A stretch of 39,123 nucleotides of DNA from the NCBI GenBank assembly GCA_017510725.1, contig JAFWMD010000040.1, forward strand, positions 1-39,123. Reading direction: 5' to 3'. This stretch comes from Mogibacterium sp. (lineage in GTDB: Bacteria; Bacillota; Clostridia; Peptostreptococcales; Anaerovoracaceae). The notes below the pieces were generated by a model that saw only the letters and a list, made by a program, of their open reading frames with translations, ran no database searches and was not told the origin of the DNA. The position numbers and the translations under genes are program-made. Below are positions 2,648-38,118 of this stretch, in pieces; the stretch's first letter is position 1; each line of letters begins with the position of its first letter.

Positions 2648-2659
2648 AGAATTCTTCAC
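2644..2659. repeat. Perfect 16-bp palindrome over the ogg stop codon
   Basis: GTGAAGAATTCTTCAC is self-complementary and includes the TGA stop of the glycosylase gene. It ends 9 bases before the groES -35 box. There is no T run, so it is unlikely to be a standard terminator; it could be an operator or chance. Confidence 0.5.
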
Positions 2660-2668
2660 CTGTAAGTG

Positions 2669-2697
2669 TTGACACTTTAGACCGCGGTGAGTACAAT
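2669..2697 (+). promoter_or_regulatory. Sigma-A promoter of groESL
   Basis: TTGACA (2669-2674), 17-bp spacer and TACAAT (2692-2697). The -35 box is consensus and the -10 is 5/6. The CIRCE operator follows at 2710, so HrcA bound there would block initiation or early elongation. Confidence 0.92.
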
Positions 2698-2709
2698 ATG
2701 TTTTGGAAT

Positions 2710-2736
2710 TTGGCACTCAAACATTCAGAGTGCTAA
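2710..2736. promoter_or_regulatory. CIRCE operator (HrcA binding site)
   Basis: TTGGCACTC-n9-GAGTGCTAA. This is the CIRCE inverted repeat with one mismatch in the left arm (consensus TTAGCACTC). It lies between the promoter and the groES ribosome site. The heat-shock repressor HrcA is predicted to act here; hrcA itself is not in the window. Confidence 0.95.
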
Positions 2737-2763
2737 CAAATAGAACTAATCAGGAGGCATAAA

Positions 2764-3045
2764 ATGAGCATCGGAATCAAACCACTCGGAGCAAGAGTAG
2801 TTATTAAGAAAATGGAAGCCGAAGAGAAGACGGAGGCAGGACTGCTGCTGTCCGGAAGCGCAAAGGAAAAGCCACAGCAGGCTGAGGTCCTGGCTGTTGG
2901 TCCTGGAACAGAAGAAGAGCCTATGCAGCTCAAGGTTGGCGATATCGTCATCTTCAGCAGATACGGCGGAAACGACCTTAAGTACAAGGGCGTTGAATAT
3001 ACGATCATCAATCAGAAAGACATTCTCGCTACCATCGAAAAATAG
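2764..3045 (+). CDS. groES: Co-chaperonin GroES
   Basis: A 93-residue cytoplasmic heptameric lid of the GroEL folding chamber. It begins MSIGIKPLGARVVIKKMEAEEKT, with the mobile loop at about 17-32 (EEKTEAGLLLSGSAKE) and the C-terminal YKGVEYTIINQKDILATIE typical of the family. Length is normal. AGGAGGCATAAA precedes the ATG. It is first gene of the groESL operon, 31 bases ahead of groEL, under a consensus promoter and a CIRCE element, so induction by heat shock through HrcA is expected. Confidence 0.98.
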   Translation: MSIGIKPLGARVVIKKMEAEEKTEAGLLLSGSAKEKPQQAEVLAVGPGTEEEPMQLKVGDIVIFSRYGGNDLKYKGVEYTIINQKDILATIEK

Positions 3046-3061
3046 CAGCGGGTGCATATAA

Positions 3062-4696
<1,635 letters not shown>

Positions 4697-4711
4697 TTTA
4701 GCCCGCTCGTC

Positions 4712-4811
4712 TTTTTCGCCACAGCTTTGTCAGCTGCGCGGCTTCGGTGCTCACGTACTCCGCGGTACGCTCCGCTCCTCAGCCGCTTGCTTCCTCGCTG
4801 TGGACGAAAAA
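4712..4811. repeat. 100-bp nested palindromic intergenic element after groEL
   Basis: Outer arms TTTTTCGCCACAGC (4712-4725) and GCTGTGGACGAAAAA (4797-4811) pair with a single bulge. Inside, GCGGCT (4738-4743) pairs with AGCCGC (4781-4786), and at the tip CGTAC (4754-4758) pairs with GTACG (4765-4769). The whole forms a long branched hairpin. It looks like a dispersed palindromic repeat or structured RNA rather than a simple terminator. No reading frame of interest lies in it. Confidence 0.7.
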
Positions 4812-4843
4812 TGCTTCGCGGACTATGCGGTCTACAATGATTG

Positions 4844-4878
4844 AAAAAAGGAAGGCTCCCGCATGGGAGCCTTTTTTG
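4844..4878. terminator. Bidirectional terminator between groEL and the MATE gene
   Basis: The stem AAGGCTCCC (4852-4860)/GGGAGCCTT (4865-4873) has the loop GCAT. An A run (4844-4849) lies on the left and a T run (4872-4877) on the right, serving groESL on the plus strand and the transporter on the minus strand. Confidence 0.92.
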
Positions 4879-4883
4879 TGTTT

Positions 4884-6236
4884 CTATTTAAGCTTTTTCA
4901 GCCTGTATATGAAGAGGAGATTGAGGAGAGTGCCTTTGAGGATGCTCGAAAGGGATATTGCCCACCAGACTCCGTTGATTCCAAGCACCGGCATCAGCAG
5001 GTAGCACATCGGTATCCTTGCGACTGTCAGGATAAGTCCGACAGCTGCCGGCAGCTTTGTCTGGCCGAGGCCATTGAATGCACCCGAAGTTGCAAGTTCA
5101 TAACCCATGAAGAGCTGCGAGAGACCTACTATTCTAAGGTAGTTGGCTCCGCCTGCGATAACGTCGGCTTCATGTATGAATAAGCTGAATATAGGGGCTG
5201 CGCCAAGGACCAGAAGGGCAGTGGCCAGGATCCCGTAAACGGTAACCATGCCGGTTCCTGTTTTGAAGCCATTTCTCACCCTGTCATAGTTTTCGGCACC
5301 GTAATTCTGAGATATGAACGCATTCATCGCATACGAGAAACCGTCACAGGTCATCCAGGTGACAGACTCTATCTGTCCGCCTATCCTCTGAATGGCGACC
5401 GCGGCATCACCGAATGTTACGATGATCCTCGAGATGACCATGGAGATGAAAGCGTAGCCTATGTTGAATATGGCAGGAGGTGCGCCGAGCTTTACTATGC
5501 GCACTGCTTCCCTGCGTTCAAACCTTCCGAACAGGCGGAAATCCTCGAAAAGATAGTTATCTGTCCTGATGAAGTTTGCAAACATTAATGAAACAACGCA
5601 TTCCGAGAAAACGGTTGCGATCGCAGCTCCCTCAACACCAAGCTCAGGGAACGGACCGATGCCGAATATCAGGACAGGGTCGAGGACGATGTTAAGTATT
5701 GCACCGGAAGAGTTGTATTTAAAAGGTGTTTTGCTGTCTCCTGCTGCGGTAAGCACTCCCTGCATCACATAGTTGAATCCCATGACGATGTGACCGATCG
5801 ATACTATCGACAGGTAGGAGGCTGCAAAAGCAGCGGTATCCGGATCGTGGAGACGGAAGAATGATATCAGCTGATGCCTGAATACGATGCATATCGTGGA
5901 GTATGCAATCATTATAAGAAGCATGAGCTGGATCGCAGTACGTGCAAAGCGGCGGGCCTTGATCATATTGCCTTCTCCGATGGACTGGCCGGTCATAACC
6001 TGTCCGCCAATCTGAGGTATCATGGCAATGCCTGAGCCAAGCCACATAAAAGAACCCGCGACTCCGACTGCAGTCACGGCCTGATTACCTAACTGGCCGA
6101 CCCACATGGTATCAAAAAGATTGTAAGCCATTTCTATGAACTGCGTTCCCATGATAGGGAGCGAGAGCCAGAACAAGGCGCCGGCTATCTTTCCGTTCAG
6201 CAGGTCTATTCTTTTTTCTTCAGTTTGTTTCTCCAA
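4884..6236 (-). CDS. MATE family multidrug/Na+ or H+-coupled efflux transporter
   Basis: A 450-residue polytopic inner-membrane antiporter of the MATE superfamily (NorM/DinF-like). About twelve hydrophobic segments are visible in two homologous halves; the N-terminal half has LPIMGTQFIEMAYNLFDTMWVGQLG, a conserved MATE signature, and the second half repeats the pattern (SLPQ-type segment near APPAIFNIGYAFISMVISRI). The start is TTG at 6236, preceded at good spacing by AGAGGT; no better ATG is nearby. The substrate cannot be read from sequence. The gene is monocistronic and divergent from the IMP dehydrogenase gene. A perfect palindrome in the shared upstream region (6344-6359) may be the site of a local regulator. 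Confidence 0.93.
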   Translation of the reverse strand: MEKQTEEKRIDLLNGKIAGALFWLSLPIMGTQFIEMAYNLFDTMWVGQLGNQAVTAVGVAGSFMWLGSGIAMIPQIGGQVMTGQSIGEGNMIKARRFARTAIQLMLLIMIAYSTICIVFRHQLISFFRLHDPDTAAFAASYLSIVSIGHIVMGFNYVMQGVLTAAGDSKTPFKYNSSGAILNIVLDPVLIFGIGPFPELGVEGAAIATVFSECVVSLMFANFIRTDNYLFEDFRLFGRFERREAVRIVKLGAPPAIFNIGYAFISMVISRIIVTFGDAAVAIQRIGGQIESVTWMTCDGFSYAMNAFISQNYGAENYDRVRNGFKTGTGMVTVYGILATALLVLGAAPIFSLFIHEADVIAGGANYLRIVGLSQLFMGYELATSGAFNGLGQTKLPAAVGLILTVARIPMCYLLMPVLGINGVWWAISLSSILKGTLLNLLFIYRLKKLK

Positions 6237-6263
6237 AGGTACCTCTTTTTTCAGTCAATGCCT

Positions 6264-6292
6264 ATTTTACATCAGCGCAGAAGGCATAACAA
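6264..6292 (-). promoter_or_regulatory. Probable promoter of the MATE gene
   Basis: On the minus strand: TTGTTA (6287-6292), 17-bp spacer, TAAAAT (6264-6269). It lies about 28 bases upstream of the TTG start. The aminotransferase gene at 37981 has the same hexamers and spacing. Confidence 0.5.
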
Positions 6293-6343
6293 TGATCCTT
6301 TTGAACTGATGATGACCTTTAAGAAAAGAGAAAATGCAAAAAA

Positions 6344-6359
6344 GTTAGAAATTTCTAAC
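6344..6359. promoter_or_regulatory. Perfect 16-bp palindrome between divergent MATE and IMPDH genes
   Basis: GTTAGAAATTTCTAAC is fully self-complementary and sits about halfway in the 257-base divergent intergenic region. Its size and AT-rich symmetric form suit a dimeric winged-helix regulator (MarR/TetR-like). The rest of the intergenic region shows weak -10-like TATATT at about 6395 but no strong promoter for the plus strand. Confidence 0.5.
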
Positions 6360-6493
6360 ATTCCAAAATTGCTTTATTTTGCTCATTTTTAATGCTATAT
6401 TAGGAAAAACAGCTCTGAATGGGGCAAAAGTTAGGTAGATTTAACGGTTAACAATTGGCTTTTTCTATAGAAATAACATTAAAGAGGTGAAAC

Positions 6494-8011
6494 ATGGCGA
6501 CTGTCCTTAAGGAACCATCAAGAACTTTTAACGAATATCTTCTCATACCTGGATATTCAAGCATGGAAGCAAGACCGGAGAACGTATCACTTAAAACACC
6601 GGTAGTAAAATTCAGAAAAGGCGAAGAGCCTGCTCTGTCGATGAACATCCCGCTGACATCTGCCGTCATGCAGGCTGTATCCGACAACAACATGGCTGTT
6701 GCTCTTGCCAAGGAAGGCGGCATCTCGTTCATTTTCGGATCACAGTCAATTGAGAGCCAGGCTGAGATGGTCAGAAAGGCCAAGAGTTACAAGGCAGGCT
6801 TTGTTCCAAGCGATTCCAACCTGAAGCCGGATGCTACCCTGCAGGACGTTCTGGACCTCAAAGCAGCGAAAGGTCATTCCACGATTGCAATCACTGAGGA
6901 CGGTACGGCTGACGGAAAGCTCCTTGGAATCGTAACCAGCAAGGATTACAGAATCTCCCGCATGAGCCGCGATACAAAGGTGGCAGATTTCATGACACCG
7001 TTTGATAAGATGGTATACGGCCACGAGGGCATCACTCTTTCAGAGGCAAACGATCTTCTCTGGGACAATAAGGTAAATCAGCTGCCTATCATCGATGACA
7101 ATCAGAGACTTACTTCTTTCGTATTCCGCAAGGACTATGACTCGCATAAGGAGCATCCGCTTGAACTTCTCGATGCAGACAAGAGGTACATCGTCGGAGC
7201 CGGCATCAACACCAGAGACTACAAGGAAAGAGTCCCGGCACTTCTCAATGCGGGCGTTGACGTTCTCACTATTGACTCTTCCGAAGGATATTCCGAATGG
7301 CAGGCAGTGACCCTCAAATGGATCAGAGATAACTATGGAGATACCGTTAAGGTCGGTGCAGGAAATGTAGTCGATGCTGATGGCTTCAACTTCCTCGCAG
7401 ACTGCGGAGCAGATTTCGTAAAGGTCGGTATCGGCGGCGGATCCATCTGTATCACCCGTGAGCAGAAGGGTATCGGACGCGGACAGGCTTCGGCAGTAAT
7501 CGAGGTAGCTCAGGCAAGAGATGAGTACTATAAAAAAACAGGCGTTTATGTGCCGATCTGCTCTGACGGAGGTATTGTATATGACTATCATATGACTCTT
7601 GCGCTGGCCATGGGAGCAGACTTCATCATGCTGGGCAGATACTTTGCAAGATTTGATGAATCGCCTTCAGCAAAACTGATGCTCAACGGAACCTATGTAA
7701 AGGAATACTGGGGCGAGGGCTCGGCAAGAGCGCGTAACTGGCAGAGATACGATCTGGGCGGAGATGCAAAGCTCAAGTTTGAAGAAGGCGTTGACTCATA
7801 TGTACCGTACGCGGGTTCTCTCCACGATAACGTGCAGATGTCGCTCGGAAAGGTGAAATCCACAATGTGCAACTGCGGTGCTCTCAATATTCCTGACTTC
7901 CACAAGAATGCAAAGCTGACTCTCGTGTCGGCCGTCAGCATCGTGGAAGGCGGAGCGCACGACGTAATACTGAAAGAAGTATCCAGCCGTACATCCGGCG
8001 GCGGACGTTAG
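6494..8011 (+). CDS. guaB: IMP dehydrogenase
   Basis: Cytoplasmic NAD-dependent oxidation of IMP to XMP, the committed step to GMP. The 505-residue protein has the (beta/alpha)8 barrel interrupted by two CBS domains (about 95-225). The catalytic cysteine loop is [21 protein letters not shown], a variant of the usual GPGSICTTR. The phosphate-binding segment [11 protein letters not shown], the flap region ...[18 protein letters not shown]... and [14 protein letters not shown] follow. This variant flap and GGGS loop belong to a divergent IMPDH group seen in clostridia. AAAGAGGTGAAAC precedes the ATG. It is followed after 43 bases by a stand-alone GMP synthetase ATPase gene, probably one operon for IMP to GMP. 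No purine riboswitch was recognised upstream. Confidence 0.95.
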
Positions 8012-8054
8012 TATAGCAAACATCACTCATTTGAGTTTCATGGAGGTATAGAAA

Positions 8055-9026
8055 ATGGGAAACATCAGACCAGACACGATGGAACGTATCACAACACGTG
8101 CACTCGCTGACAAGTTCATCGAGGAGCAGCTCGCTGAGATCAAGACGCAGGTAGGGGATAAGAAGGTTCTTCTTGCACTTTCCGGAGGCGTTGATTCAAG
8201 TGTAGTAGCTGCATTGCTTATTAAGGCGATAGGTGACAATCTGGTCTGCGTTCATGTAAACCACGGACTTCTCCGTAAGGGCGAGCCAGAGATGGTCATC
8301 AAGGTATTCAGGGAAGAGCTTGGCGCGAATCTCATCTATGTAGATGCTGTTGACAGATTCCTCGACAAGCTTGCGGGCGTAGATGATCCTGAAACCAAGC
8401 GTAAGATTATCGGCAAGGAGTTCATCGATGTGTTTGCTGAAGAGGCTGCTAAGCTCGACGGCATCGCTTTCCTCGGACAGGGTACAATCTATCCGGACAT
8501 CCTTGAGTCGGATGGAGTAAAGGCTCACCACAATGTAGGAGGACTCCCTGAAGATCTTCAGTTCGAGCTTGTTGAGCCTGTGAAGCTGCTCTACAAGGAC
8601 GAGGTAAGAGTAGTAGGCTCTGCACTCGGACTTCCTGACAACATGGTATACAGACAGCCGTTCCCGGGACCTGGTCTCGGTGTAAGATGCACCGGAGCTA
8701 TCACAAGAGACAGACTCGAGGCTCTCAGAGAAGCTGATGCGATTGTAAGAGAAGAGATTGGCAAGATGGAAAACGTGCCATGGCAGTATTTCGCAGTAAT
8801 TCCTGACATGCAGTCGACAGGTATCAAGGACGGCAAGAGATACATGGGATGGCCGGTCATCATCAGAGCCATCAATACAGTCGATGCTGTAACGGCAGAG
8901 TCGGTAGAAATTCCTTGGGATATGCTGAAGAGAATGAGAGACCGCATCATCGAAACCGTTCCTGGCGTAAACAGAGTAATGTGGGATATTTCCGATAAGC
9001 CTGTAAGCACTATCGAATTTGAATAA
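8055..9026 (+). CDS. GMP synthase ATP-pyrophosphatase subunit lacking the glutaminase domain
   Basis: A 323-residue protein covering only the ATP-PPase and C-terminal dimerisation domains of GMP synthase (XMP + ATP + NH3 to GMP). The PP-loop SGGVDSS is at 43-49. [30 protein letters not shown] and the terminal DKPVSTIEFE are all characteristic. No class I glutamine amidotransferase precedes it, so ammonia must come from free NH3 or a separate partner. GGAGGTATAGAAA precedes the ATG. It lies 43 bases after IMP dehydrogenase and ends at a strong terminator. A complete two-domain GuaA is encoded 2.5 kb downstream, so this is a second, diverged copy (for example VNHGLLRKGE versus [10 protein letters not shown]). 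It resembles the archaeal split GuaAb arrangement, without its partner here. Confidence 0.92.
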   Translation: MGNIRPDTMERITTRALADKFIEEQLAEIKTQVGDKKVLLALSGGVDSSVVAALLIKAIGDNLVCVHVNHGLLRKGEPEMVIKVFREELGANLIYVDAVDRFLDKLAGVDDPETKRKIIGKEFIDVFAEEAAKLDGIAFLGQGTIYPDILESDGVKAHHNVGGLPEDLQFELVEPVKLLYKDEVRVVGSALGLPDNMVYRQPFPGPGLGVRCTGAITRDRLEALREADAIVREEIGKMENVPWQYFAVIPDMQSTGIKDGKRYMGWPVIIRAINTVDAVTAESVEIPWDMLKRMRDRIIETVPGVNRVMWDISDKPVSTIEFE

Positions 9027-27820: not shown

Positions 27821-29683
27821 ATGACGAGTGTGACTGTTGTTATCCTGTCAACCGCATTGCTTCTGGCAATGGTACTTAACCTTGCTCTGAAGCCATCTTT
27901 TTCTGCCAGGCTCACAACCATATGCATGATCATAGCCTTTGCCGGAGGCGTACTTATATATGGCGTTGGATTTGCTGAAAGCACCGGTGACATCGGGCTC
28001 AGCATGATCCGTACGCCTTTTTGCGTGATAAAAATGTTCGTCGGTATAAATGATTACGGATCAATAGAAGGCACTTCACCTGTCGGGACCCCGTTCAGGA
28101 TCGTATTGTTCTGGATCATACACCTTCTGGCGTTTTATTCCATGGCCAGTGCTGCGATGTTCACGCTCGGTGAGGAAGCTTTGAGATACCTGCGAATGAT
28201 CCTTTCCGCAAAAGGCGACCTGACCCTGATTTACGGCATCAATGACCGGAGCATAAAACTGGGCAGGGAGTGCCGGAAAGCCGGAGCGGGTTCTGTAGTC
28301 TTTATTGCCGAGAATGCCGATCATGACGCTGTAACGGATCTGAACAATATGGGTATGTCAGTGATAAGCGGTCCGTCAGCTGTCTCATCCGACAAATCAG
28401 TGATGAGAAAGCTCAGAGCCGGCCGCCGCAGCATAAATGTGTTCGCGCTGGATGAAGAGGACAAAGACCTCTTTTATGCTCTTGGCCTGAAAGATGCTCT
28501 TAAGGAATTCGATGTTCCACCTGAAAAAACTGCCATCACACTTCCAGGAGCTGAAGATATTATTACGTCGATGCTGCAGGTATCTGCGGATCAGTATGGA
28601 TACGGTTATGTCAATGTTTATGACAGTGCCATGCTTTCAGCCAGAGCTTTGATAAAGGTATGTCCGCCCTGGGAACTCGTAAAATTCGGGAGTGACAGCC
28701 GTGCTCAGGAGGATTTTGACTGCGCCATAGTGGGCTTCGGCAGACATGGGCAGGCTGTACTGAAGCAGCTGCTTATGAACGGACAGTTTGCAGGCAGTAC
28801 ATTCCACTCTGCTGTTTTTTCGCCTAATTTTGAAAACGAGGCAGGGTACATGAAGGCTGAGTGCGCATCTATGTTTGAAAATTATGATATCAGAAGCTTT
28901 AACGCGGATGGCAGGAGCATTGAGTTCTATAACTACGTTGATAACAGGATAGATACACTCAAGCTTATAGCGGTATGCACCGGAAATGAAGAGAGCGACC
29001 GCGAGATATCGGATAATCTTATGATGTATCTGAAGCGCCGTAATGCTGAACATATCTGCGTCGTCAGGTGCGGAAAAGATGGTGTCAGATATCAGGAGAC
29101 AGTCGGCAGTCCGATCATCACTGCTGATATATATTCGCTTGAGTATCTTTCAGCACAGAATGCAGACCGTGATGCGATCATAATTAACAGCACTTATGAT
29201 GATTCTGACAGGACCGATTGGGAGAAATGGGTGGCATGCGACTCGTTCAGCAAGATGTCATCGCGAGCTTCCGCTGATTTCATACCGGCATTCATCAGTG
29301 CATCAGGTATGACAGCAGAAGAGGTGATGGCAGGCAGCTGGCCGCCGGCTGCAGACGTTCTGGAAGTATTGGGAGAGACGGAGCATCTCAGGTGGAATGC
29401 TTTCCACTTCGTGATGGGATACTCACCTATGAGCAGCGCGGAACTCGATGAAAGAACTGATACGTACAGAAAACGCATTGAAAAAGGCCTCCCGGGCATC
29501 AGGCTGTTCAAGGATTCTGAAAACCGTACTCATGCCTGTCTGATACCATGGGATGAGCTTGATGCTTTGTCAGAAAAGGAAAAATCAATTACAGGGCGTG
29601 CTGTGGACTATAAGCAGTATGACATCAATAACGTTCTGATTATTCCTGAGATCCTTAAACAAGGAGAAAAGGCAGCAAAATGA
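27821..29683 (+). CDS. Three-TM protein with two Rossmann/TrkA-like domains and a RyR domain
   Basis: 620 residues from ATG 27821 (AGGAGGT five bases upstream). Three hydrophobic helices (about 3-24, 32-52, 93-115) lie before the soluble part; a K+-filter motif is absent. The first nucleotide-binding fold begins LTLIYGINDRSIKLG; the second has CAIVGFGRHGQAVL (GxGxxG near 305-310). The C-terminal ~90 residues (ETEHLRWNAFHFVMGY...HACLIPWDEL...YDINNV) match the ryanodine-receptor repeat (RyR, PF02026) pattern. It overlaps the next gene by four bases (ATGA). I infer a poreless regulatory partner of the channel encoded next. Domain calls are by eye. Confidence 0.8.
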   Translation: MTSVTVVILSTALLLAMVLNLALKPSFSARLTTICMIIAFAGGVLIYGVGFAESTGDIGLSMIRTPFCVIKMFVGINDYGSIEGTSPVGTPFRIVLFWIIHLLAFYSMASAAMFTLGEEALRYLRMILSAKGDLTLIYGINDRSIKLGRECRKAGAGSVVFIAENADHDAVTDLNNMGMSVISGPSAVSSDKSVMRKLRAGRRSINVFALDEEDKDLFYALGLKDALKEFDVPPEKTAITLPGAEDIITSMLQVSADQYGYGYVNVYDSAMLSARALIKVCPPWELVKFGSDSRAQEDFDCAIVGFGRHGQAVLKQLLMNGQFAGSTFHSAVFSPNFENEAGYMKAECASMFENYDIRSFNADGRSIEFYNYVDNRIDTLKLIAVCTGNEESDREISDNLMMYLKRRNAEHICVVRCGKDGVRYQETVGSPIITADIYSLEYLSAQNADRDAIIINSTYDDSDRTDWEKWVACDSFSKMSSRASADFIPAFISASGMTAEEVMAGSWPPAADVLEVLGETEHLRWNAFHFVMGYSPMSSAELDERTDTYRKRIEKGLPGIRLFKDSENRTHACLIPWDELDALSEKEKSITGRAVDYKQYDINNVLIIPEILKQGEKAAK

Positions 29684-31233
29684 ACAGCAGAAAAAGAAAC
29701 ATACGTATAGTGGCCGCGATAATAGCTGCATATGCGGCAGTACTTGTACTGCTGCTGGCTGCTGAGTCAAAGGCGGAGGGTTCGTCCATACACAGTATAG
29801 GGGATGCCATCTGGTACTCTGTCATTACACTTACAACAGTAGGTTACGGAGATCTTTCCCCTGTGACCCCTGCAGGAAAAGCACTTGGTGTAATTCTTGC
29901 CCTTTGCAGTCTCGGGGTGTTCACCGCACTTGTAGGTGTACTGATAAGTTTTATCAGTGGACAGGCAAGACCGCGATTCAGACTCCGGTCGTTAAGGGAC
30001 CGCAGATGGTATGCGATCAGTGAGGAGAACGAGCAGTCTGCTGTATTTGCAGGATCCGTTCTTGCTGATGACCCTGACGCCGCCATTATTTTCCGCCGCT
30101 CGGCAGAAAACCGGATAGGCGGCAGGGCTGTTGTGCGCCTTGACTGCAATCCTGAAGAACTCATCGATCTGAAGGGGAGCGGGCAGGATATAAAGTATTT
30201 CTGCCTGGGTGAAGACTCATGGGAGAATTACCGTCAGGCGACAGATGCTGCCGGTCTGGATATAGATACGTACTGCCTTACAGACTTCGGGTCTGACGAG
30301 ATATCGGGCAGCCTTCATACATTCAGCAAAAAAGAGATCATCAGCAGGTGCTACTGGAGAGATCATCCTTTACGCAAAGACGAGAAGACCATAGTTCTGA
30401 TCGGCAGCGGAAAGATCGCAGCAGAATTGCTTGAAAGGGGACTCCTTACCAATGTATTCGAGCCGGGCAGATACATCTGCTACCATGTCTTTGGAGATTC
30501 CTCGGATTTCAGGAAGTCACACCGTGAGGCAGTCAGAACTTTATGCGGCGGAGATCCTGAAGATGACGCACTGTTCCTCCACGAAGAATGCTGGGAGTAT
30601 CATCCGGAGATCATACGCAATGCCGACAGGATCATCATCTGTGAGGATGATGACAGGAGCGATCTGGCAACTTATAAAGAGATCATGATGCTGTTCCCGA
30701 CAGCTGCAAAAGTCCATGTCAGGTTAAACAATACAGTTGAAAAGATCAGCTGTTTTGGCAGCAGCAAAGATATATTTACGATGAGAGCATTTGTCAGGGA
30801 CGATATCAACAGGCTTGCGGTCACGCTCAACGATATCTATAACGAAGGATCTGGCAAAACTGGCGGATGGAGCGATCTCAGCGATCATCTGAAACGTTCC
30901 AACATAGCTGCGGCCGATCATATGATCGTAAAGGTCCGATATCTTCTCGATGACGACAGCATCACGGAGCTCACGGAAGAGAACTGCCGCAGAGCATATG
31001 ATGTGTTCAGCGATGCAGACCCTGATAAGAGGGACATATGCAGGGAGATGGAGCACAGACGCTGGATGAGATACCACCAGATGTACAACTGGACATACTC
31101 ACCTGAAAGGAACGATCTGATGCGCAGGCATCCTATGATGCTCCCGTATTCAGAACTCAGTGAAGAAGATAAAGAAAAAGACGCTTTTGCATGGGAGATG
31201 CTTGCCGGAGTCGCAGACAGGTCTGCTGTCTGA
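29680..31233 (+). CDS. Two-TM potassium channel with Rossmann-like region and C-terminal RyR-like motif
   Basis: 517 residues. TM1 (about 9-28), pore helix, selectivity filter TTVGYGD (52-58) and TM2 (67-92) make a complete two-TM K+ channel, expected as a tetramer in the membrane. The cytoplasmic part has a Rossmann-type strand TIVLIGSGKIAAELL (GxGxxA), like TrkA_N/RCK domains. Near the end MEHRRWMRYHQMYNWTYSPERN (457-478) repeats the EHxRW signature of the RyR domain in the preceding protein. ATG 29680 overlaps the previous stop. Gating by a nucleotide or similar ligand through the Rossmann and RyR parts is inferred from known RCK channels, not demonstrated. Confidence 0.85.
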   Translation: MNSRKRNIRIVAAIIAAYAAVLVLLLAAESKAEGSSIHSIGDAIWYSVITLTTVGYGDLSPVTPAGKALGVILALCSLGVFTALVGVLISFISGQARPRFRLRSLRDRRWYAISEENEQSAVFAGSVLADDPDAAIIFRRSAENRIGGRAVVRLDCNPEELIDLKGSGQDIKYFCLGEDSWENYRQATDAAGLDIDTYCLTDFGSDEISGSLHTFSKKEIISRCYWRDHPLRKDEKTIVLIGSGKIAAELLERGLLTNVFEPGRYICYHVFGDSSDFRKSHREAVRTLCGGDPEDDALFLHEECWEYHPEIIRNADRIIICEDDDRSDLATYKEIMMLFPTAAKVHVRLNNTVEKISCFGSSKDIFTMRAFVRDDINRLAVTLNDIYNEGSGKTGGWSDLSDHLKRSNIAAADHMIVKVRYLLDDDSITELTEENCRRAYDVFSDADPDKRDICREMEHRRWMRYHQMYNWTYSPERNDLMRRHPMMLPYSELSEEDKEKDAFAWEMLAGVADRSAV

Positions 31234-31248
31234 TAAAGGGGGACTGAC

Positions 31249-33915
31249 ATGAAAAGTAATGCGCGCAAAACCATCAGCATATTAATGATCATGCTTATGA
31301 TCATGCCTTTTACGTGGCAGGTCTTTGCAGACGACACTTTACCGGAGGATCAGGACACAGCAGCTGATACTGAAGCAGTGCAGCCTGAGCCTGAGGCGGA
31401 GACAGCAGCTGAGAAACCTGCAGCTCCTGCATCAAGCGAGAGTGCGGCTGCGCAAATACCTGAATCATCTGAGAATGCAGCTATGCAAACACCAGAAGCA
31501 TCTGAAGCAAAGGCCGGAACTGCAGCTGAAGAAGTGGCTGCAGAACCCGAGCCGTACGAGCCTGCTGAGCAGGATACGGCGGAGTCAGCTGCTGCACCTG
31601 AACCGTCCGGGCCTGAAGAAGATCCGAAAGATACGGCGCCTGCACCTGCTGTGGCAAAAGCGGCTTATGCACCTGCTCCGGCAGCTGCAGCATCAGTAAG
31701 AACAGCAGCTCAGACAGATAAAACGATTACCATTGCCGGAACTAAGCTCAACTGCACTGCCGACAGCAGCGGAAGCGGATGGACTTACGAAAAGGACAGC
31801 GGCAGGATAGTTCTCAGGGACTATACAGACAGCGCTGATATCACATCAGACGGCACTGGAGTCGATATCGTTTCCACCGGTTTAAACAGGATCGGAACGC
31901 TTTCCTGTGACGGGGACATCAATGTTATCGGGACCGGGATCCTTCTCATCGATAAGGTTGAGCTTGCAGAAGGGTGCTCCTTCAATCTTCTTCCTCTTAA
32001 AGACTATTATGGAGAGGACGGGGGCAGCGTTGCAGTATTCCTTAAACAGGATGATGAATCATATATGCTTATTAACGGAACGGTCAAAGGCATTGTCGAT
32101 GAGAATTATAAGATCGAAGATGTGAAGCTTGTACTTCCTGAGAACTCTTATCTTGAACTTCAGGCTCTTGGTGTCGTAGTTGAGACGGATGAAGACGGTA
32201 ATGAGACTATCATAAGGGACTATTCCGGCTTTAGTGAAGAAGAATTGAAAGCAGCTGCTATCAGGTACTACATAGCTAATCTGAAGGTAAACGATCTGAC
32301 CGTCAAAAAAGGCGCAACGATCAAACTCAATAGAGTATCGGATGTGATCATATCAAGCCTCACAGTTGTCGGCAGTCTGGTAAATGATGGAGTCATCAAC
32401 GGCGGCCTTGTAGACGCTGTCGGTTATTCGGGATCAGGTATTATCGAGAATTCCATAATTACACTTAGCCAAGGCCAGACAACGAGCATCAAGCTCAGGG
32501 ATGCCAATGTTTCTCTGGAGCGTGGTGATTATACGCTCAATGAATTAAACATCACGGGAAACTGCGAACTATATTATGAGGGTAATGTTGAATTAAAGAA
32601 GATAAAGTCTTCTTCCAATGGTTCGTTGAGTATATACAGCAGAAATATTTTTAATGACAATCGTATTGTTAAGATCACTGACGAGATCGAAAAAGTCTCT
32701 GTTGTGATCAAATCTGCTATTACAGAACTCGAAGCGGATCTTAAAGTGAATGAAGCCACAGTAAGCAACCAAACATATGGAGGGCCGGTGTTCGATTACA
32801 GCGGGAAAGGTGCTGTATCATACGGGATAAACGGATCTGTATACCTCGGTCCGAAAGATATTATCATGCCGGAGGCTGATTCTATCCCGGTCGTGTCTTT
32901 GGCTCTTCTTGATACCAGGAAACCCTTGTTATATTACACATGGGAAGAAAACGTGAATGAAGAAGAGGTTTACACTCAGCTTGCAGACTATAATGTATCA
33001 GAGAAAAACGAAGAAGGATTGATTACTTATACTGACCTGCTTAGCTCCTATGTCCCTGAAGAGATATTATCAGAGTTTGGGGTTTCCCCATTTTTATTCG
33101 AGGTGCTCCGCTGCAAAAACGGCAGATTGTCCATGACTATTCTTGGATATGGCTATCAGCAAAGCACTGATGCTGACGGTGTGTTTCTGATAAGAAAGGT
33201 GGTTCGGACCGCTACGGAAGAGAACAGTGGAGGATCTGCCATGACTACGACACATGCATCACAGACCGGCTCGGGAAATATTGGCGGTAATTCCAAACCT
33301 ATCTTTACAGGAACAGGCATTTCAAGGTTCTCGTCAGAGGATCCTGTCGAGCCTGAACCAAAACCTGAACCAAAGCCTGAACCAAAACCTGAACCAAAGC
33401 CTGAACCAAAGCCTGAGCCAAAACCGGTTGATCCGGACCCTGGCAAACCGGCCGGTGATTACACGATCGCAGCAGTCACTACAGTAGGTGATACAATTGT
33501 GCTTCAGATCAATGAGTTCGATCTTAACGAAGGCGTTGAGAATGCCGAAAAAGCGCCGTATTATAACCTTACGGCATATATAAACGGTGCGCAGATCACC
33601 GAACTCAGCGGGGTTGTCGAGGCGGAAATGGAGTATGTGCTTCCGGAGGAATTCAGGGATAAACCACTCTATGCAGTCTTTGCCAATGAGGATGAGACTT
33701 CGGATGAGATCCTCATGGCTGTCAGTGCCACATACGATGAAGAGGCAGCAACACTCACGTTTGAGACTTCACAGACAGGAGAGTTTATAATCACTGCACT
33801 CGAGTTCGATGGCAGGGAGTTTTCACCGGAATTCTATGATGAGCTCGAAAAGACGGACGAATCAAAACTGTTTTTAAAACATCTGGAAGAAAAGAAGAAT
33901 GATGCAGGATTATGA
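31249..33915 (+). CDS. Large secreted low-complexity/beta-rich surface protein
   Basis: 888 residues with a signal peptide (KTISILMIMLMIMPFTWQVFAD). Residues about 25-160 are an Ala/Pro/Glu-rich spacer. Then comes a long strand-rich region (about 160-560) with short repeating units of the TVKKGATIKLNRVSDVIISSLTVVGSLV type, suggesting a beta-helix or stacked repeats. Next is a Gly/Ser linker, six Pro-Glu-Pro-Lys units (about 702-725) and a final beta-domain (about 740-865). No LPxTG, choline-binding or membrane anchor is visible. AAGGGGG precedes the ATG. It sits 15 bases after the channel gene and overlaps the next TIR-like gene by 17 bases, so it belongs to the same transcript. Ligand unknown; it may be an extracellular sensor or shield. 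Confidence 0.8.
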   Translation: MKSNARKTISILMIMLMIMPFTWQVFADDTLPEDQDTAADTEAVQPEPEAETAAEKPAAPASSESAAAQIPESSENAAMQTPEASEAKAGTAAEEVAAEPEPYEPAEQDTAESAAAPEPSGPEEDPKDTAPAPAVAKAAYAPAPAAAASVRTAAQTDKTITIAGTKLNCTADSSGSGWTYEKDSGRIVLRDYTDSADITSDGTGVDIVSTGLNRIGTLSCDGDINVIGTGILLIDKVELAEGCSFNLLPLKDYYGEDGGSVAVFLKQDDESYMLINGTVKGIVDENYKIEDVKLVLPENSYLELQALGVVVETDEDGNETIIRDYSGFSEEELKAAAIRYYIANLKVNDLTVKKGATIKLNRVSDVIISSLTVVGSLVNDGVINGGLVDAVGYSGSGIIENSIITLSQGQTTSIKLRDANVSLERGDYTLNELNITGNCELYYEGNVELKKIKSSSNGSLSIYSRNIFNDNRIVKITDEIEKVSVVIKSAITELEADLKVNEATVSNQTYGGPVFDYSGKGAVSYGINGSVYLGPKDIIMPEADSIPVVSLALLDTRKPLLYYTWEENVNEEEVYTQLADYNVSEKNEEGLITYTDLLSSYVPEEILSEFGVSPFLFEVLRCKNGRLSMTILGYGYQQSTDADGVFLIRKVVRTATEENSGGSAMTTTHASQTGSGNIGGNSKPIFTGTGISRFSSEDPVEPEPKPEPKPEPKPEPKPEPKPEPKPVDPDPGKPAGDYTIAAVTTVGDTIVLQINEFDLNEGVENAEKAPYYNLTAYINGAQITELSGVVEAEMEYVLPEEFRDKPLYAVFANEDETSDEILMAVSATYDEEAATLTFETSQTGEFIITALEFDGREFSPEFYDELEKTDESKLFLKHLEEKKNDAGL
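33352..33423 (+). repeat. Six tandem 12-bp units encoding Pro-Glu-Pro-Lys
   Basis: CCTGAACCAAAA/G is repeated six times with one or two base changes, in frame, in the surface-protein gene. Prone to slippage in steps of four residues, giving a variable-length wall-spanning spacer. Confidence 0.95.
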
Positions 33916-34747
33916 TATCTGCATCCTCGCAGTAGCCGGGGACGCATCAGTTGCGAATAAGCTGGCGGAGAGCATCCGCAGATATAAGCTTCCGTCTGGT
34001 ACTGTCATTCCGGACAGCAGTCTGGATTACAGACGGGTCTATGTTGAAGTGTCCGGCAGGGACTTCGATGATGAAGCCCGCAGCATACTGGATCACAGCC
34101 GCTGCCTGGCTGTACTCTGCTCACCTGAAACGAGGACCAGCCGGTTCATACTTGACCGCCTGGCATATTTCCGTGAAATCGGAAAAGACAATAACATAAT
34201 TGCAGTAATCATCCGGGGAGAGCCGGTCGATTCTTTCCCGGAGTCTTTTATTGAGAAAAAGACCGTACGGAAGATACTTCCGGACATGACTGTTGTGGAG
34301 CGTACCGAAACAATAGAGCCGGTAGCCTCAGACCTCAGAGCGGAGACCCGTTCGCGCTGGAAGGAGGCTTTGAACTATGAGACCGTAAGGATCATAGCAT
34401 CCATACTTGGGCTGCATCCGGACGACCTTGAGCAGCGCCACCGCATGCGTCACAGAAAGGCTGTCATCACCCTGGTTTCGGTCATAGCCGCTGTCTGCCT
34501 CGGGGCAGCAGGTATTTTCGCATATCTCGGACATGTAGCCCGTCTCGAAGGAGAAATCGCCGATCAGCAGGCAAAACTGTGTGTGGATATAGCTGAGAGA
34601 ACGATGAACGAACTTCCTGCGGCATTCGCCGATGAGCCGCGGGCGCTTGTATACATACAGCAGGCAGTCGATAACGCCAGGGACTCACTTGAGGAACTGG
34701 GGCTTGATTCGCCGTCTGATGAAGGCACGGCTGTAACGGGAGGCTAG
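33899..34747 (+). CDS. Membrane-anchored degenerate TIR-like protein
   Basis: 282 residues. Residues 1-120 align by eye with the TIR domain of the next protein: YDICILAVAGDASVANKLAESIRRYKLP against YDVFFSYRH...LFNLAENYRLP, then SRCLAVLCSPETRTSRFILDRLAYFREIG against TNCLAVVCSTDTPSSEWVDREVATFIELG. The SYRH loop is lost, and the WxxxE pair (W87/E91 in the neighbour) is replaced by F83 and R87, so NADase activity is unlikely. A shared helix (ETVRIIASILGLHPDDLEQRHRMRHRK) leads to one TM (187-211) and a short tail with coiled-coil character. The start overlaps the surface-protein gene by 17 bases; the TIR-TPR gene starts two bases after the stop. I infer a pseudoenzyme partner or scaffold. Confidence 0.75.
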   Translation: MMQDYDICILAVAGDASVANKLAESIRRYKLPSGTVIPDSSLDYRRVYVEVSGRDFDDEARSILDHSRCLAVLCSPETRTSRFILDRLAYFREIGKDNNIIAVIIRGEPVDSFPESFIEKKTVRKILPDMTVVERTETIEPVASDLRAETRSRWKEALNYETVRIIASILGLHPDDLEQRHRMRHRKAVITLVSVIAAVCLGAAGIFAYLGHVARLEGEIADQQAKLCVDIAERTMNELPAAFADEPRALVYIQQAVDNARDSLEELGLDSPSDEGTAVTGG

Positions 34748-34749
34748 AC

Positions 34750-36789
34750 ATGTACGATTACGATGTGTTCTTCAGCTACCGTCACAGGCCGCTGGACAGT
34801 GAAATAACGCAGAAACTTTTCAATCTGGCAGAGAATTACCGCCTGCCTGCTCCTTTGCGTGAAGAAGGCCTGAGCGGAGTTAAGCGTGCTTTCCGGGATA
34901 CCGAGGAGCTGCCTGTCAGCAGGATACTCACTGACACCATCGACAAGGCTCTGCGTTCGACAAACTGCCTGGCTGTTGTCTGCTCAACTGATACACCTTC
35001 GTCCGAATGGGTAGACAGGGAGGTAGCAACATTTATAGAGCTCGGCAGGGCGGATCACATATTCCCGATACTCATAAGCGGCGATCCTGAAACATCATTC
35101 CCGGAATCCATGAAGCTTATACCGGACATCATGGACAGGCTCATGGACATACGTGCCGCAGGGAATGATATTAAAAGGATGATGGCGCTTGCTTCAACAG
35201 AGATGCTCAGGGTGATCGCATGCGTTGCAGGCTGTACTGAAGAGGAACTTCTCAGGGAGCATCGCATGGAACAGGGCAGACAGACTGTTAAGCGCGCAGT
35301 CTGCAGCGCTGCAGCATTCGTCCTCATTCTGGCGGTTTCGCTTAGTCTGATGTTACGAGCGCAGAATTACAGGAAAGAGGCTGAAAAAAGAGAAGCAGCT
35401 TCGATGCAGATACTGAATGAGCTTACCTACGGGCTGCCTGACAGGCTTTCTGATGTGCCCGGCTCATACAGCCGCATAAGGGACATTCTTTACAGCAACA
35501 CTGAAGACATAAATAAGATACTCAGGCTGACACGCAACAGAGAGGCAGGCGAGTACGAAGCAGCAGTAAATTACGAGAAGCTGGCAACTGCTGAAAATGT
35601 ACTTGGACGGCATAATGAGGCGCTGGAATCCGAGAATACAGCCATATCTCTGTTTGAGACGCTGGCGGGATCCGGCTATGAGCGTGCGGAATCAGGTGCT
35701 GCCTCAGGTTACAACAACCGTGCCATCATCCTTAATTCAGCCGGACGCTATGAAGAGGCCGGTGCGGATTATGACAAAGCTATCAGCATGCAGGAATCTC
35801 TGGCATCAGGGGACAAGCTTGTTCTGGCAAGGATGTTCTTTAATGCCGGAGCAAATGCGGTCGACATGGGAAACGGCAATCTTGCAGCGGAGCGCTTTGA
35901 ACAGAGCCTGGAACTTTTCAGCGGAATGGGGAGGTCGGCTGATGTACTGGATGCGCTTAGTATGGTGAAATACAATTATGGGGTGCTTCTGTACAGATCC
36001 GGACTCTATGATGATGCTTCGGCAATGCTTTCCTCTGCGTGTGACGACCTGAACGAACTTATCGGAATAAACGATTCCCTTAAAAACAGGAGCAGTTATG
36101 TTCAGACAGCTTCCATGCTTGCCGCCTGTCTCACGGATGCAGGCAAGTATGAAGATGCAGACGGGTATTATGAGGAAGCCATAAAGGCTGCTGAAATACT
36201 GGCGCAGGACGAAGAGAACATCTCTTATCAGCAGATGCTGGCCGAACTGTATAATAACAGAGGACTCAGCCACAATATACGCGGGGACTATTCGACCGCG
36301 GATGAGTATTATGCTGCCGCATCGGAAGTATACAGAAGTATTTATGAAAAGACGGGCATGGATCCGGACTGTGCGTCATATGCGATGAGCCTGCTCAACA
36401 CAGGCGAGAATGCGTTCAAGGCTCATGACTATGAGCGGTCTGAGCAGTTTTTCGTCAGTGGACTCGATGAGTATGACAAGGTGGCAGATTCACTGGGGAC
36501 GTATCATAAGGCGCAGTATCTTGCATGGAGATCCTATTATGAGCTTATCCATCTTAAGGATTTCAAAGCAGCTCTTGCATCTGCATCAGCTGCGTATGAG
36601 ATGCAGCCTGACAACACTCTCGTAAAAATGAATTACGCATATGCCTGTCTGTATTCCGGCGATACAGCCCGCGCACAAAAACTGCTGAAGGAAATAGCGT
36701 CGTCCGGACTGGGAGAGGAGGAAACTATAAAAAGAGACCTGCAGGCACAGAGGGATGCAGGTCTGAAAAGCGAGAATATAGACATATAG
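34750..36789 (+). CDS. TIR domain-transmembrane-TPR protein
   Basis: 679 residues. The TIR domain (about 2-125) opens YDVFFSYRHRPLDSE, has the box-2-like KRAFRDTEELP and keeps W87xxxE91 (SEWVDRE), the position of the catalytic glutamate in NAD-cleaving TIR domains. A linker helix (EMLRVIACVAGCTEEELLREHRMEQGRQ) precedes a single TM (182-203). The remaining ~450 residues are TPR repeats (units such as ALESENTAISLFETLAGSG, AGADYDKAISMQESLA, ADGYYEEAIKAAEILAQ, ADEYYAAASEVYRSIYE). TIR inside and TPR outside, or the reverse, depends on topology: positive residues around the TM favour the TIR side in the cytoplasm. It is last gene of the operon. The terminator of the convergent aminotransferase gene lies inside its 3' end. 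Confidence 0.88.
   Translation: MYDYDVFFSYRHRPLDSEITQKLFNLAENYRLPAPLREEGLSGVKRAFRDTEELPVSRILTDTIDKALRSTNCLAVVCSTDTPSSEWVDREVATFIELGRADHIFPILISGDPETSFPESMKLIPDIMDRLMDIRAAGNDIKRMMALASTEMLRVIACVAGCTEEELLREHRMEQGRQTVKRAVCSAAAFVLILAVSLSLMLRAQNYRKEAEKREAASMQILNELTYGLPDRLSDVPGSYSRIRDILYSNTEDINKILRLTRNREAGEYEAAVNYEKLATAENVLGRHNEALESENTAISLFETLAGSGYERAESGAASGYNNRAIILNSAGRYEEAGADYDKAISMQESLASGDKLVLARMFFNAGANAVDMGNGNLAAERFEQSLELFSGMGRSADVLDALSMVKYNYGVLLYRSGLYDDASAMLSSACDDLNELIGINDSLKNRSSYVQTASMLAACLTDAGKYEDADGYYEEAIKAAEILAQDEENISYQQMLAELYNNRGLSHNIRGDYSTADEYYAAASEVYRSIYEKTGMDPDCASYAMSLLNTGENAFKAHDYERSEQFFVSGLDEYDKVADSLGTYHKAQYLAWRSYYELIHLKDFKAALASASAAYEMQPDNTLVKMNYAYACLYSGDTARAQKLLKEIASSGLGEEETIKRDLQAQRDAGLKSENIDI
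36725..36764 (-). terminator. Terminator of the aminotransferase gene, inside the TIR-TPR coding sequence
   Basis: On the minus strand, the perfect 9-bp stem AGACCTGCA/TGCAGGTCT (36735-36743 with 36756-36764) is followed by CTTTTTATAG. It falls within the last 22 codons of the convergent gene. No other terminator exists in the 19-base gap between the two stops. Confidence 0.75.
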
Positions 36790-36808: not shown

Positions 36809-37981
36809 TTATTTCCTGTATGGCATTTTCTTTCTGATGGATTCAAGACGGTTCAGGGCAGCATATAATGTGCTGTCCTGTTTTGCGAAATGGAACCGTA
36901 TAAGGTGATTTACAGGCTCCCTGAAGAAGCTCGAGCCGGGTACAGCCGCTACTCCGACTAAGCGGGTCAGATCCTCACAGAATTCAAGGTCATTTTCATA
37001 GCCGAACTCAGAAACGTCCATCAGAACATAGTAAGCTCCCTGCGGATCAGTGTGGTTCAGGCCTAAATCGTCAAGGCCTTTCAGGAAGATATCGCGCTTG
37101 TGCGTATATAAGTCAACAAGTCCCTTATAGTATTCAGGACCGGCCAGCAGTCCCGGAATAACTGCCTCCTGTAGTGGGTGAGGTGCACCGACTGTCAGGA
37201 AATCATGCACTTTCCTGACACACTCGGTGATTTCAGGCGGTGCAATAACATAACCTATCCGCCATCCGGTTATGGAATAAGTCTTTGAAAGGGAAGAGCA
37301 GGACAGCGTACGCTCGCGCATTCCCGGCAGGGATGCGATATAGGTGTGCTTATATGGCTCATAAACGATGTGCTCGTAGACTTCATCAGTGATGACATAT
37401 GTATCGTATTTTATAGCCAGATCCGCTATGATCTCCAGTTCTTCACGTGTAAACACCTTGCCTGTCGGGTTGGAAGGATTGCATAGTATCATCGCCTTCG
37501 GATGCTGTCTGAAGGCGTCCTCGAGCACTTCCGGATCAAAGTGAAAATCAGGCGGTACCAGAGGCACATATATAGGCTCGGCACCGGACAAAATGGTATC
37601 TGCACCGTAGTTTTCATAGAACGGAGAGAATATGATGACCTTATCGCCCGGGTCAGCAACCGTGAGCACGGAAGACATCATCGCTTCAGTACTCCCGCAT
37701 GTTACGGTTATCTCGGTATCGGGATCGATGTCCATTCCCATGAAACGGCTCTGCTTTTCGGCAAGTGCCCGGCGGAATTCCGGATCTCCGAAAGTTATTG
37801 AGTACTGATGCACATCGAGCATGTCAGCAGTTTCTCCAAGTCTCTTAAGCAGCATCTCAGGAGGTGCGAAATCAGGGAATCCCTGGGACAGGTTGATGGA
37901 ATCATACTGATAGGCGATTCTGGTCATGCGCCTTATTACGGAATCCGTAAAATGTTCTGTTTTTTTCGATAGTTTCTGCAT
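36809..37981 (-). CDS. Class I/II PLP-dependent aminotransferase
   Basis: 390 residues from ATG 37981, preceded by AGGGGG; the frame is open to 38110 without support. Fold-type I features: INLSQGFPDFAPP near the N-terminus (as in methionine/kynurenine/aspartate aminotransferases), CNPSNPTGK (167-175), the PLP-phenol-binding D199 in ITDEVYE, the PLP lysine K233 in SSLSKTYSITGWRIGY and R241. Substrate is not certain; methionine, aromatic or aspartate are all possible. Monocistronic, with promoter at 38013-38041 and a terminator embedded in the TIR-TPR gene. Confidence 0.93.
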   Translation of the reverse strand: MQKLSKKTEHFTDSVIRRMTRIAYQYDSINLSQGFPDFAPPEMLLKRLGETADMLDVHQYSITFGDPEFRRALAEKQSRFMGMDIDPDTEITVTCGSTEAMMSSVLTVADPGDKVIIFSPFYENYGADTILSGAEPIYVPLVPPDFHFDPEVLEDAFRQHPKAMILCNPSNPTGKVFTREELEIIADLAIKYDTYVITDEVYEHIVYEPYKHTYIASLPGMRERTLSCSSLSKTYSITGWRIGYVIAPPEITECVRKVHDFLTVGAPHPLQEAVIPGLLAGPEYYKGLVDLYTHKRDIFLKGLDDLGLNHTDPQGAYYVLMDVSEFGYENDLEFCEDLTRLVGVAAVPGSSFFREPVNHLIRFHFAKQDSTLYAALNRLESIRKKMPYRK

Positions 37982-38012
37982 GTAATACCCCCTGACACTC
38001 TGTTCTTCAGCT

Positions 38013-38041
38013 ATTTTATCAATTGCACTGAACATTAACAA
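38013..38041 (-). promoter_or_regulatory. Probable promoter of the aminotransferase gene
   Basis: On the minus strand: TTGTTA (38036-38041), 17-bp spacer, TAAAAT (38013-38018), 32 bases before the ATG. Confidence 0.6.
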
Positions 38042-38089
38042 CAATAAGTCTTTTCTATGTTTTGCTTTGTTCTGTTTGCCCCGTTTTGT

Positions 38090-38118
38090 TTGAATAACCC
38101 CCTCTTTCAATGTAGAAT
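38090..38118 (+). promoter_or_regulatory. Probable promoter of the carboxyltransferase gene
   Basis: TTGAAT (38090-38095), 17-bp spacer, TAGAAT (38113-38118), about 50 bases before the start. It is divergent from the aminotransferase promoter. Confidence 0.5.

Follow-up and report, generated by a model that had tools for sequence, protein, structure and literature searches.

An operon of five genes (g1 to g5), found in a contig of Mogibacterium sp. (JAFWMD010000040.1 of assembly GCA_017510725.1), is the subject of this report; the whole stretch analysed, 39,123 nucleotides long, is called the window. Homology and gene linkage suggest that the operon is a Thoeris-like module, in which a nucleotide made by a TIR protein acts on a potassium channel bearing a RyR domain, and the probability of this reading is put at about one half. 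In such a module, g5 would be a TIR enzyme anchored in the membrane, its TPR part acting as the sensor; once triggered, it would convert NAD+ to a small signal of the ADP-ribose type, while g4 would serve as a regulatory or scaffolding partner. The RyR domains of g1 and g2, judging from homology and genomic linkage, would bind this signal on the cytosolic side, and the binding would open or change the K+ channel g2, with g1 as its sister subunit or a second effector. The loss of K+ and the depolarisation would then stop the cell or the invading phage; g3 would be an optional surface component. The gene order and its conservation, the domain identities, the catalytic-type and ligand-contact residues, the linkage of TIR with RyR across lineages, and the presence or absence of the operon as a unit are direct observations.

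The proposed output is made concrete by the identity of g2 as a channel. In Pfam, its two-transmembrane (2-TM) pore is matched by Ion_trans_2 (60.8 bits, E=1.2e-16) and its C-terminal end by RyR (PF02026; 29.1 bits against a cut-off of 27.4). Both lie above the cut-offs, which bears out a preliminary description, made from the sequence alone, of g2 as a K+ channel with a TVGYGD filter and a RyR-like tail. The VGYGD motif is unchanged in 21 aligned homologues. When a profile of the g2 family was compared with the Protein Data Bank (PDB), a voltage-gated K+ channel (6uwm, 1.1e-17) and a RyR1 chimera (6uhi, 1.4e-16) were matched; the match in PADLOC was weak (0.039). The animal ryanodine receptor is a giant Ca2+ release channel. 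The likeness of g2 to it lies in the RyR repeat on an ion channel and in the profile match to RyR1, whereas g2 is only 517 amino acids long and has a K+ pore. It also resembles the bacterial K+ channels gated by RCK/TrkA in joining a 2-TM pore with a cytosolic module, but here the module ends in RyR and the similarity to TrkA is below threshold. Further, another family, made up of 3-TM RyR proteins linked to TIRs, is homologous to g2 over the cytosolic part (hhalign P=2.2e-16) and carries different membrane segments. Since the cytosolic part is shared and the membrane segments are not, g2 may be the one readable case in a family of membrane effectors under RyR control.

In the sections covered of a 2026 preprint, 2'/3' cyclic ADP-ribose (cADPR) made by TIR enzymes is reported to be bound or cut by RyR domains of phages through four residues (PMC13232231). 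This provides an experimental precedent for the step missing from the preliminary description, namely RyR as the binder of TIR products. It is also reported there that RyDEP is a glycosidase, that some of its relatives are sponges, and that of eight RyDEP homologues, six hold the signals in a stable complex and do not cut them. In g2, according to an alignment made with a hidden Markov model (HMM) of RyR, the residues H459, W462, H484 and D501 correspond with identical spacing to H75, W78, H100 and D117 of RyDEP, and the set of four is kept in the window-type channels except for one D-to-N change (L033). At the third ligand position, 18 aligned paralogous channels have Asn (16) or Ser (one), His being found only in the TIR-flanked L037.

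The glycosidase and the sponges also lend weight to another explanation, in which the depletion of NAD+ by the TIR protein is itself the effector, and the RyR proteins either sense NAD+ or ADP-ribose and limit the damage, or sequester or hydrolyse the signal as the phage RyDEP does, which would keep the system silent without infection. In g2, both residues of the catalytic dyad, H and D, are kept, and stand-alone RyR proteins of 92-99 amino acids lie directly beside TIR genes in three genomes (G288, G169 and G795). However, RyR is here joined to a K+ channel of canonical type as well as to a multi-TM protein, which would be odd if it were only a quencher, and the Asp of the dyad is missing from g1. 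This explanation is held to be distinctly unlikely.

As regards the second candidate receiver of the TIR-to-channel module, simple hydropathy shows four hydrophobic segments in g1, with starts near residues 1, 26, 58 and 87, and Pfam gives no RyR match for it. The RyR part of g1 was recognised through profile-profile alignment with g2 (hhalign P=7.5e-8), which runs along the cytosolic part and takes in both RyR motifs, and through the RyR HMM built here. The equivalents of RyDEP H75, W78 and H100 are kept, and no Asp is aligned at the fourth position. The preliminary description had also seen a double Rossmann fold in g1. The signs of a Rossmann or RCK fold in g1 and g2 are weak: TrkA_N scores 17 bits in g1 against a Pfam cut-off of 23.8 and does not match g2, and alignment against TrkA by hhalign gives a probability of 5.0% for g2 and 1.0% for g1. 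This fold is kept as a possibility.

In g5, Pfam identifies a ThsB_TIR domain (32.7 bits against a cut-off of 21.2) and TPRs, and the residues W87 and E91 of the WxxxE motif are unchanged in 11 of 11 sequences. The matches of g5 in PADLOC come through its TIR and TPR parts only: SAVED_TIR (3.6e-7) spans residues 5-110, the TIR part alone, and the ThsB models reach 0.01. The charges around its membrane segment favour neither orientation. The neighbouring g4 scores 19.8 for TIR against the cut-off of 21.2, and is 27% identical to g5 and therefore a diverged homologue. It lacks WxxxE in 11 of 11 sequences and has Arg in the column of the catalytic Glu, so the word 'degenerate', used of it earlier, is apt. 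In all 11, the positive charge is greater on the TIR side of its membrane segment, which places the N-terminus and the TIR part inside. When the two TIRs of the window were aligned with the TIRs beside or near RyR genes at 21 other places (at one of them, in G002, the TIR is almost 9 kb from the RyR match), the glutamate column held Glu in 22 of the 23 rows, g4 being the sole exception. It was thus rightly supposed that a TIR with a catalytic-type glutamate is present.

These residues also bear on the proposal that the operon encodes a membrane K+ regulator with non-enzymatic TIR scaffolds, where the TIRs only assemble the complex and RyR binds an ordinary adenine nucleotide. The lack of catalytic residues in g4 fits such a role, as do the structures of human RyR3 Repeat12 solved with adenine-containing ligands (PMC13232231, sections covered). 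The unbroken WxxxE of g5 and the near-invariant Glu of the TIR rows speak against it, and it is held to be very improbable.

The conservation of the operon was followed in its relatives. Orthologues of g2, with 66-81% identity, were found in nine of 35 same-genus genomes searched, and one further orthologue (G379, 68%) came from an order-wide search. In all ten fetched loci, g1, g2, g4 and g5 are linked in the same order; the gap of +2 between g4 and g5 is retained in all ten, and the 4-base overlap of g1 and g2 in nine (L116 and L117 are left out of the co-occurrence counts for the other operon genes). The records of the relatives (11 loci) are goat-gut 'Mogibacterium sp.' metagenome-assembled genomes and 'uncultured Clostridiales' ones with RUG isolate names, which we take to be from the rumen. 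The third gene behaves differently. It occupies the slot between g2 and g4 in seven of the ten loci, with two copies there in L029, and is missing from the slot in L030, L032 and L096; a copy lies downstream of g5 in L031 and L032. It evolves faster than the other operon genes (36-76% identity vs 66-91% for g1, g2, g4 and g5) and is optional, and no informative match to it was found in Pfam or PDB. A relative of g3 stands alone in the window's own genome (L138; contig C42, 2840-5701), where the only TIR_2 and ThsB_TIR matches are those in the window.

The preliminary description had read the five genes as one functional unit with the secreted protein as sensor. The unit holds for four genes, since a lack of conserved linkage was found for g3 only; the TIR/RyR link, the catalytic-type Glu and the K+ filter hold as well. 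The part of g3 as a required sensor is rejected on account of its variable presence, as it is missing from the slot in three of ten loci and has an extra copy in two others.

Wider sampling was made of the linkage of TIR with RyR. In the order, 41 of 393 genomes have PF02026, at 50 listed places. Fourteen of the places (13 of the 41 genomes) have a TIR_2 match no more than 5 kb from RyR, and 17 have one within 10 kb, where 0.31 and 0.61, respectively, would be expected under uniform placement; these counts use TIR_2 matches, leave out those of ThsB_TIR, and are drawn from places that lack phylogenetic independence. In the phylum, 398 genomes were sampled, with completeness of 90 or more requested; they gave nine RyR genomes besides that of the window, all outside the order; seven of them, and 10 of 12 places judged by eye, have TIR_2 within 5 kb, G539 and G602 being without it. 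Thus, the supposed co-occurrence was found in both samples. As a control, 55 Ion_trans_2 places in the 41 genomes were taken, of which two lie within 5 kb and five within 10 kb of a TIR; all five are the RyR channel of this operon. In G111, G117, G675 and G750, the RyR and TIR genes overlap by their start and stop codons. The TIRs near RyR genes are of several kinds, namely TM-TPR, TM-WD40, NACHT-TPR, TPR without TM, and TIR without any other Pfam domain.

In some relatives, the place of the TIR beside RyR is taken by DUF4062, a TIR-like NADase family (Swarozyc) with anti-phage activity as per a 2026 preprint, the main text of which, in the sections covered, does not mention RyR (PMC13174449). 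The likeness to Swarozyc ends at the window's own genome, which has no DUF4062 match. Eight of the 41 RyR genomes carry DUF4062, and it adjoins RyR in G140, G171 (twice) and G197 (convergent); in G288, it is 2 kb from RyR, as a 61-amino-acid frame only. On an Arcobacter plasmid, genes for NAD-binding, RyR and DUF4062 proteins are consecutive and near type I restriction. A Priestia plasmid (NZ_CP128553.1, L136) carries a Pycsar-effector-annotated gene, a cyclase and RyR, with a TIR gene 1.4 kb on, on the opposite strand. In the PLSDB gene table, the RyR gene of an Acinetobacter plasmid has no TIR closer than 6 kb. None of ten RyR proteins tested was matched in PADLOC.

Other arrangements were also observed. 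L127 (G499) and L126 (G602) have a similar pair of a RyR gene and a 4-TM gene, with TIR-NACHT-TPR in G499 vs DUF4062-STAND-TPR in G602, possibly a sensor swap. In L092 (G117) and L093 (G111), a 3-TM RyR gene and a TIR-TM-WD40 gene, overlapping by start and stop, lie beside type III-A CRISPR genes; the type was called from Csm1 and Csm2 in G117 only, and from gene lengths and starts in G111. In L124 (G795), L125 (G689) and L136, a cyclase-domain gene, a stand-alone RyR of about 95 amino acids and a TIR gene are close together, the cyclase being tested in L124, annotated in L136 and of similar start in L125; in such TIR-type Pycsar loci, RyR may be a quencher or a guard. L123 (G634; 2654-7177) encodes a protein of 1507 amino acids having a RyR-like stretch and a sub-threshold match to Card1/NERD nuclease, with three TIR_2 matches in the same stretch. 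A clade of RyR proteins of about 860 amino acids in other families of the order (L054, L066-L068, L071, L073-L076) has no TIR_2 within 10 kb; the one protein tested gave a sub-threshold AAA match.

Within the genus, a paralogue of g2 with 34-39% identity occurs at 15 places, members without a TIR being among them. Twelve of the 15 fetched paralogue loci adjoin genes clustering with TrkH and TrkA (Pfam was run on one), and in G010 (L037), a TIR gene follows. The window's own genome holds a second RyR K+ channel of this kind (L048; contig C86, 8492-10075), which is 36% identical to g2, has no TIR, and has Asn as the third ligand residue; its neighbours cluster with TrkH, TrkA and MatE, an arrangement seen in 12 of the 15 paralogue loci fetched from the genus. 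The position of this second channel beside genes clustering with TrkH and TrkA was counted in favour of the TIR-to-channel module.

Several findings weigh against that module. Of the 50 order-level RyR places, 33 lack a TIR_2 match closer than 10 kb, and in 19 of the 41 RyR genomes there is no TIR_2 match anywhere. In G301 and G267, RyR keeps the four ligand residues, and TIR_2, ThsB_TIR and DUF4062 were not found in those genomes. The fourth ligand residue is missing from g1. In the preprint on the phage proteins, RyDEP cut the signals, none of the other homologues tested did so, and two of eight formed no stable complex (PMC13232231, sections covered). Retention of the third residue (H100) was suggestive by eye as a marker of TIR linkage across lineages and was dropped, as the association is not significant (p=0.10, from a rough hand-made table with the residue of G221 unseen). 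Finally, no defence gene adjoins the operon in the window, where the flanks scanned hold genes for glycogen synthase, a receiver and an aminotransferase.

The operon behaves as a movable 9-kb module that is present or absent as a unit. In G004 and G012, which lack it at this site, the regions of the receiver and the aminotransferase (84-90% identical) adjoin with about 30 bases between them, the left match being the receiver open reading frame (ORF) only. In G003, the aminotransferase gene has neither the operon nor the receiver beside it. The aminotransferase flank is common to the window and six of ten relatives (L030-L035); the stretch fetched 3' of g5 lacks it in L028, L036 and L096, and in L029, where that stretch lies outside the fetched DNA, the opposite side carries orthologues of the window genes at 6494-9026. 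Because there are operon-free sites and the flanks differ among relatives, the operon is taken to be a discrete unit that has more than one location. The shared flank genes (80-98% identity) tend to be better conserved than the operon genes. A phage or plasmid origin was considered and rejected: the phage collection holds no full-length relative of g2 (five records, pore region only), none of 14 plasmid-collection records matching g2 covers 80% of it, and of the g2 relatives in viral contigs none was confirmed.

The same chemistry might instead serve envelope or ion-stress signalling, where a TIR signal tunes the K+ flux and the system is not directed at phages. The chromosomal slot next to an aminotransferase gene, which the window shares with six relatives, the secreted component g3, and the related RyR channel beside genes clustering with TrkH/TrkA are in keeping with this purpose. 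It is less easily reconciled with the patchy presence of the operon as a unit in more than one place, or with the RyR/TIR and RyR/DUF4062 relatives that lie beside type III-A CRISPR genes, a plasmid Pycsar-annotated gene and plasmid type I restriction; it is regarded as rather unlikely.

The five ORFs lie on one strand at the positions reported earlier, and their junctions (-4, +15, -17 and +2 bases) also agree (Table 1). AGGAGG precedes the ATG of g1 at 27821. The start of g4 may be its second ATG (33902), which makes its overlap with g3 14 bases, and this overlap is present in six of the seven relatives with g3 in the slot. A promoter scan gave 13 sites vs 11.6 in shuffled sequence. On the left flank, a glycogen synthase gene precedes the receiver ORF, the counterpart of which in G004 is the C-terminal end of an ORF of 934 amino acids with many TM segments (L119, 10593-13397); compared with it, the ORF of the window may be a shortened remnant.

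Table 1. Features of the operon and its flanks, in window coordinates.
Feature	Position	Strand	Basis or remark
g1, membrane protein, cytosolic part related to g2, RyR-like C-terminus	27821..29683	+	ORF, hydropathy, hhalign
g1 RyR-like region, residues 512-588	29354..29584	+	RyR HMM built here; alignment
g2, K+ channel (2-TM) ending in a RyR domain, 517 amino acids	29680..31233	+	Pfam; PDB profile search
g2 selectivity filter TVGYGD, residues 53-58	29836..29853	+	sequence; alignment
g2 RyR domain (PF02026)	31045..31185	+	Pfam; H459, W462, H484, D501
g3, secreted/surface protein, signal peptide, Glu-Pro-Lys linker	31249..33915	+	ORF; sequence
g3 putative signal peptide, about residues 1-27	31249..31329	+	sequence; hydropathy
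g4, degenerate TIR-TM protein	33899..34747	+	sub-threshold Pfam TIR; alignment; Arg in catalytic Glu column
g5, TIR-TM-TPR protein	34750..36789	+	Pfam; hydropathy
g5 TIR domain (ThsB_TIR)	34768..35073	+	Pfam
g5 putative catalytic Glu91 codon, WxxxE W87-E91	35020..35022	+	alignment
g5 TM segment, about residues 182-202	35293..35355	+	hydropathy
Receiver ORF, left flank, response-regulator, 173 amino acids	27224..27745	+	Pfam; outside module
Aminotransferase gene, right flank	36809..38110	-	Pfam; outside module

Among the known systems, Thoeris has effectors of the SIR2-SLOG, macro-TM and caspase-like types. The operon resembles it in having a TIR gene with a catalytic-type Glu beside a proposed receiver of the nucleotide product. 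It differs in that matches to SIR2-SLOG, macro and caspase are absent from the five proteins (Pfam, NCBIfam and PADLOC), that the proposed receiver is a RyR domain on a K+ channel, and that two TIR-TM proteins and a secreted protein are present. Because a known Thoeris effector is absent, the operon is not assigned to Thoeris but is counted as a variant of TIR nucleotide signalling. In the same three collections, neither a nucleotide cyclase nor a CD-NTase, as in Pycsar or CBASS, was found in the five proteins, none of which reaches the cut-off of any NCBIfam model. With RyDEP, g2 shares the RyR domain (Repeat12, PF02026) and the H-W-H-D set at the same spacing (PMC13232231); however, RyDEP is phage-borne and counters defence, whereas g2 is bacterial, fused to a channel and co-encoded with TIR.

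Among the papers listed in the literature searches, PMC13232231 alone stood out for linking RyR domains of phages or bacteria to TIR signals, and its covered sections describe the phage proteins and not bacterial TIR/RyR operons. The covered parts of PMC7016017, on Ca2+ stores, and of PMC7159879, on conflict systems, hold nothing on bacterial RyR with TIR. RyR effectors cannot be called unpublished, because a catalogue of TIR systems (bioRxiv 10.64898/2025.12.03.692087) lies outside this coverage.

A wider claim is advanced tentatively, the odds being somewhat against it: that there is a bacterial cADPR-RyR axis, in which a membrane TIR makes a cADPR isomer that binds RyR and directly opens a K+ channel. 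Pairs of TIR and RyR receptor would then be a widespread branch of TIR immunity, RyR would long have been a receptor for TIR-type nucleotides, the phage RyDEPs would be captured copies, and a prokaryotic counterpart would exist for the action of cADPR on the ryanodine receptors of animals, itself a matter of dispute. The survey yields a simple rule for finding further such systems, namely RyR adjoining TIR or DUF4062. Whether nucleotides of the cADPR type act directly on RyR domains has long been debated, and the operon would offer a small, purifiable system for this question. If the proposed mechanism is true, an ion-channel output is added to TIR immunity, and a reason is suggested why RyR-domain proteins able to bind or cut such signals are found in phages. 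Bacteria would thus gate an ion channel with TIR-made nucleotides through the namesake domain of the animal ryanodine receptors.

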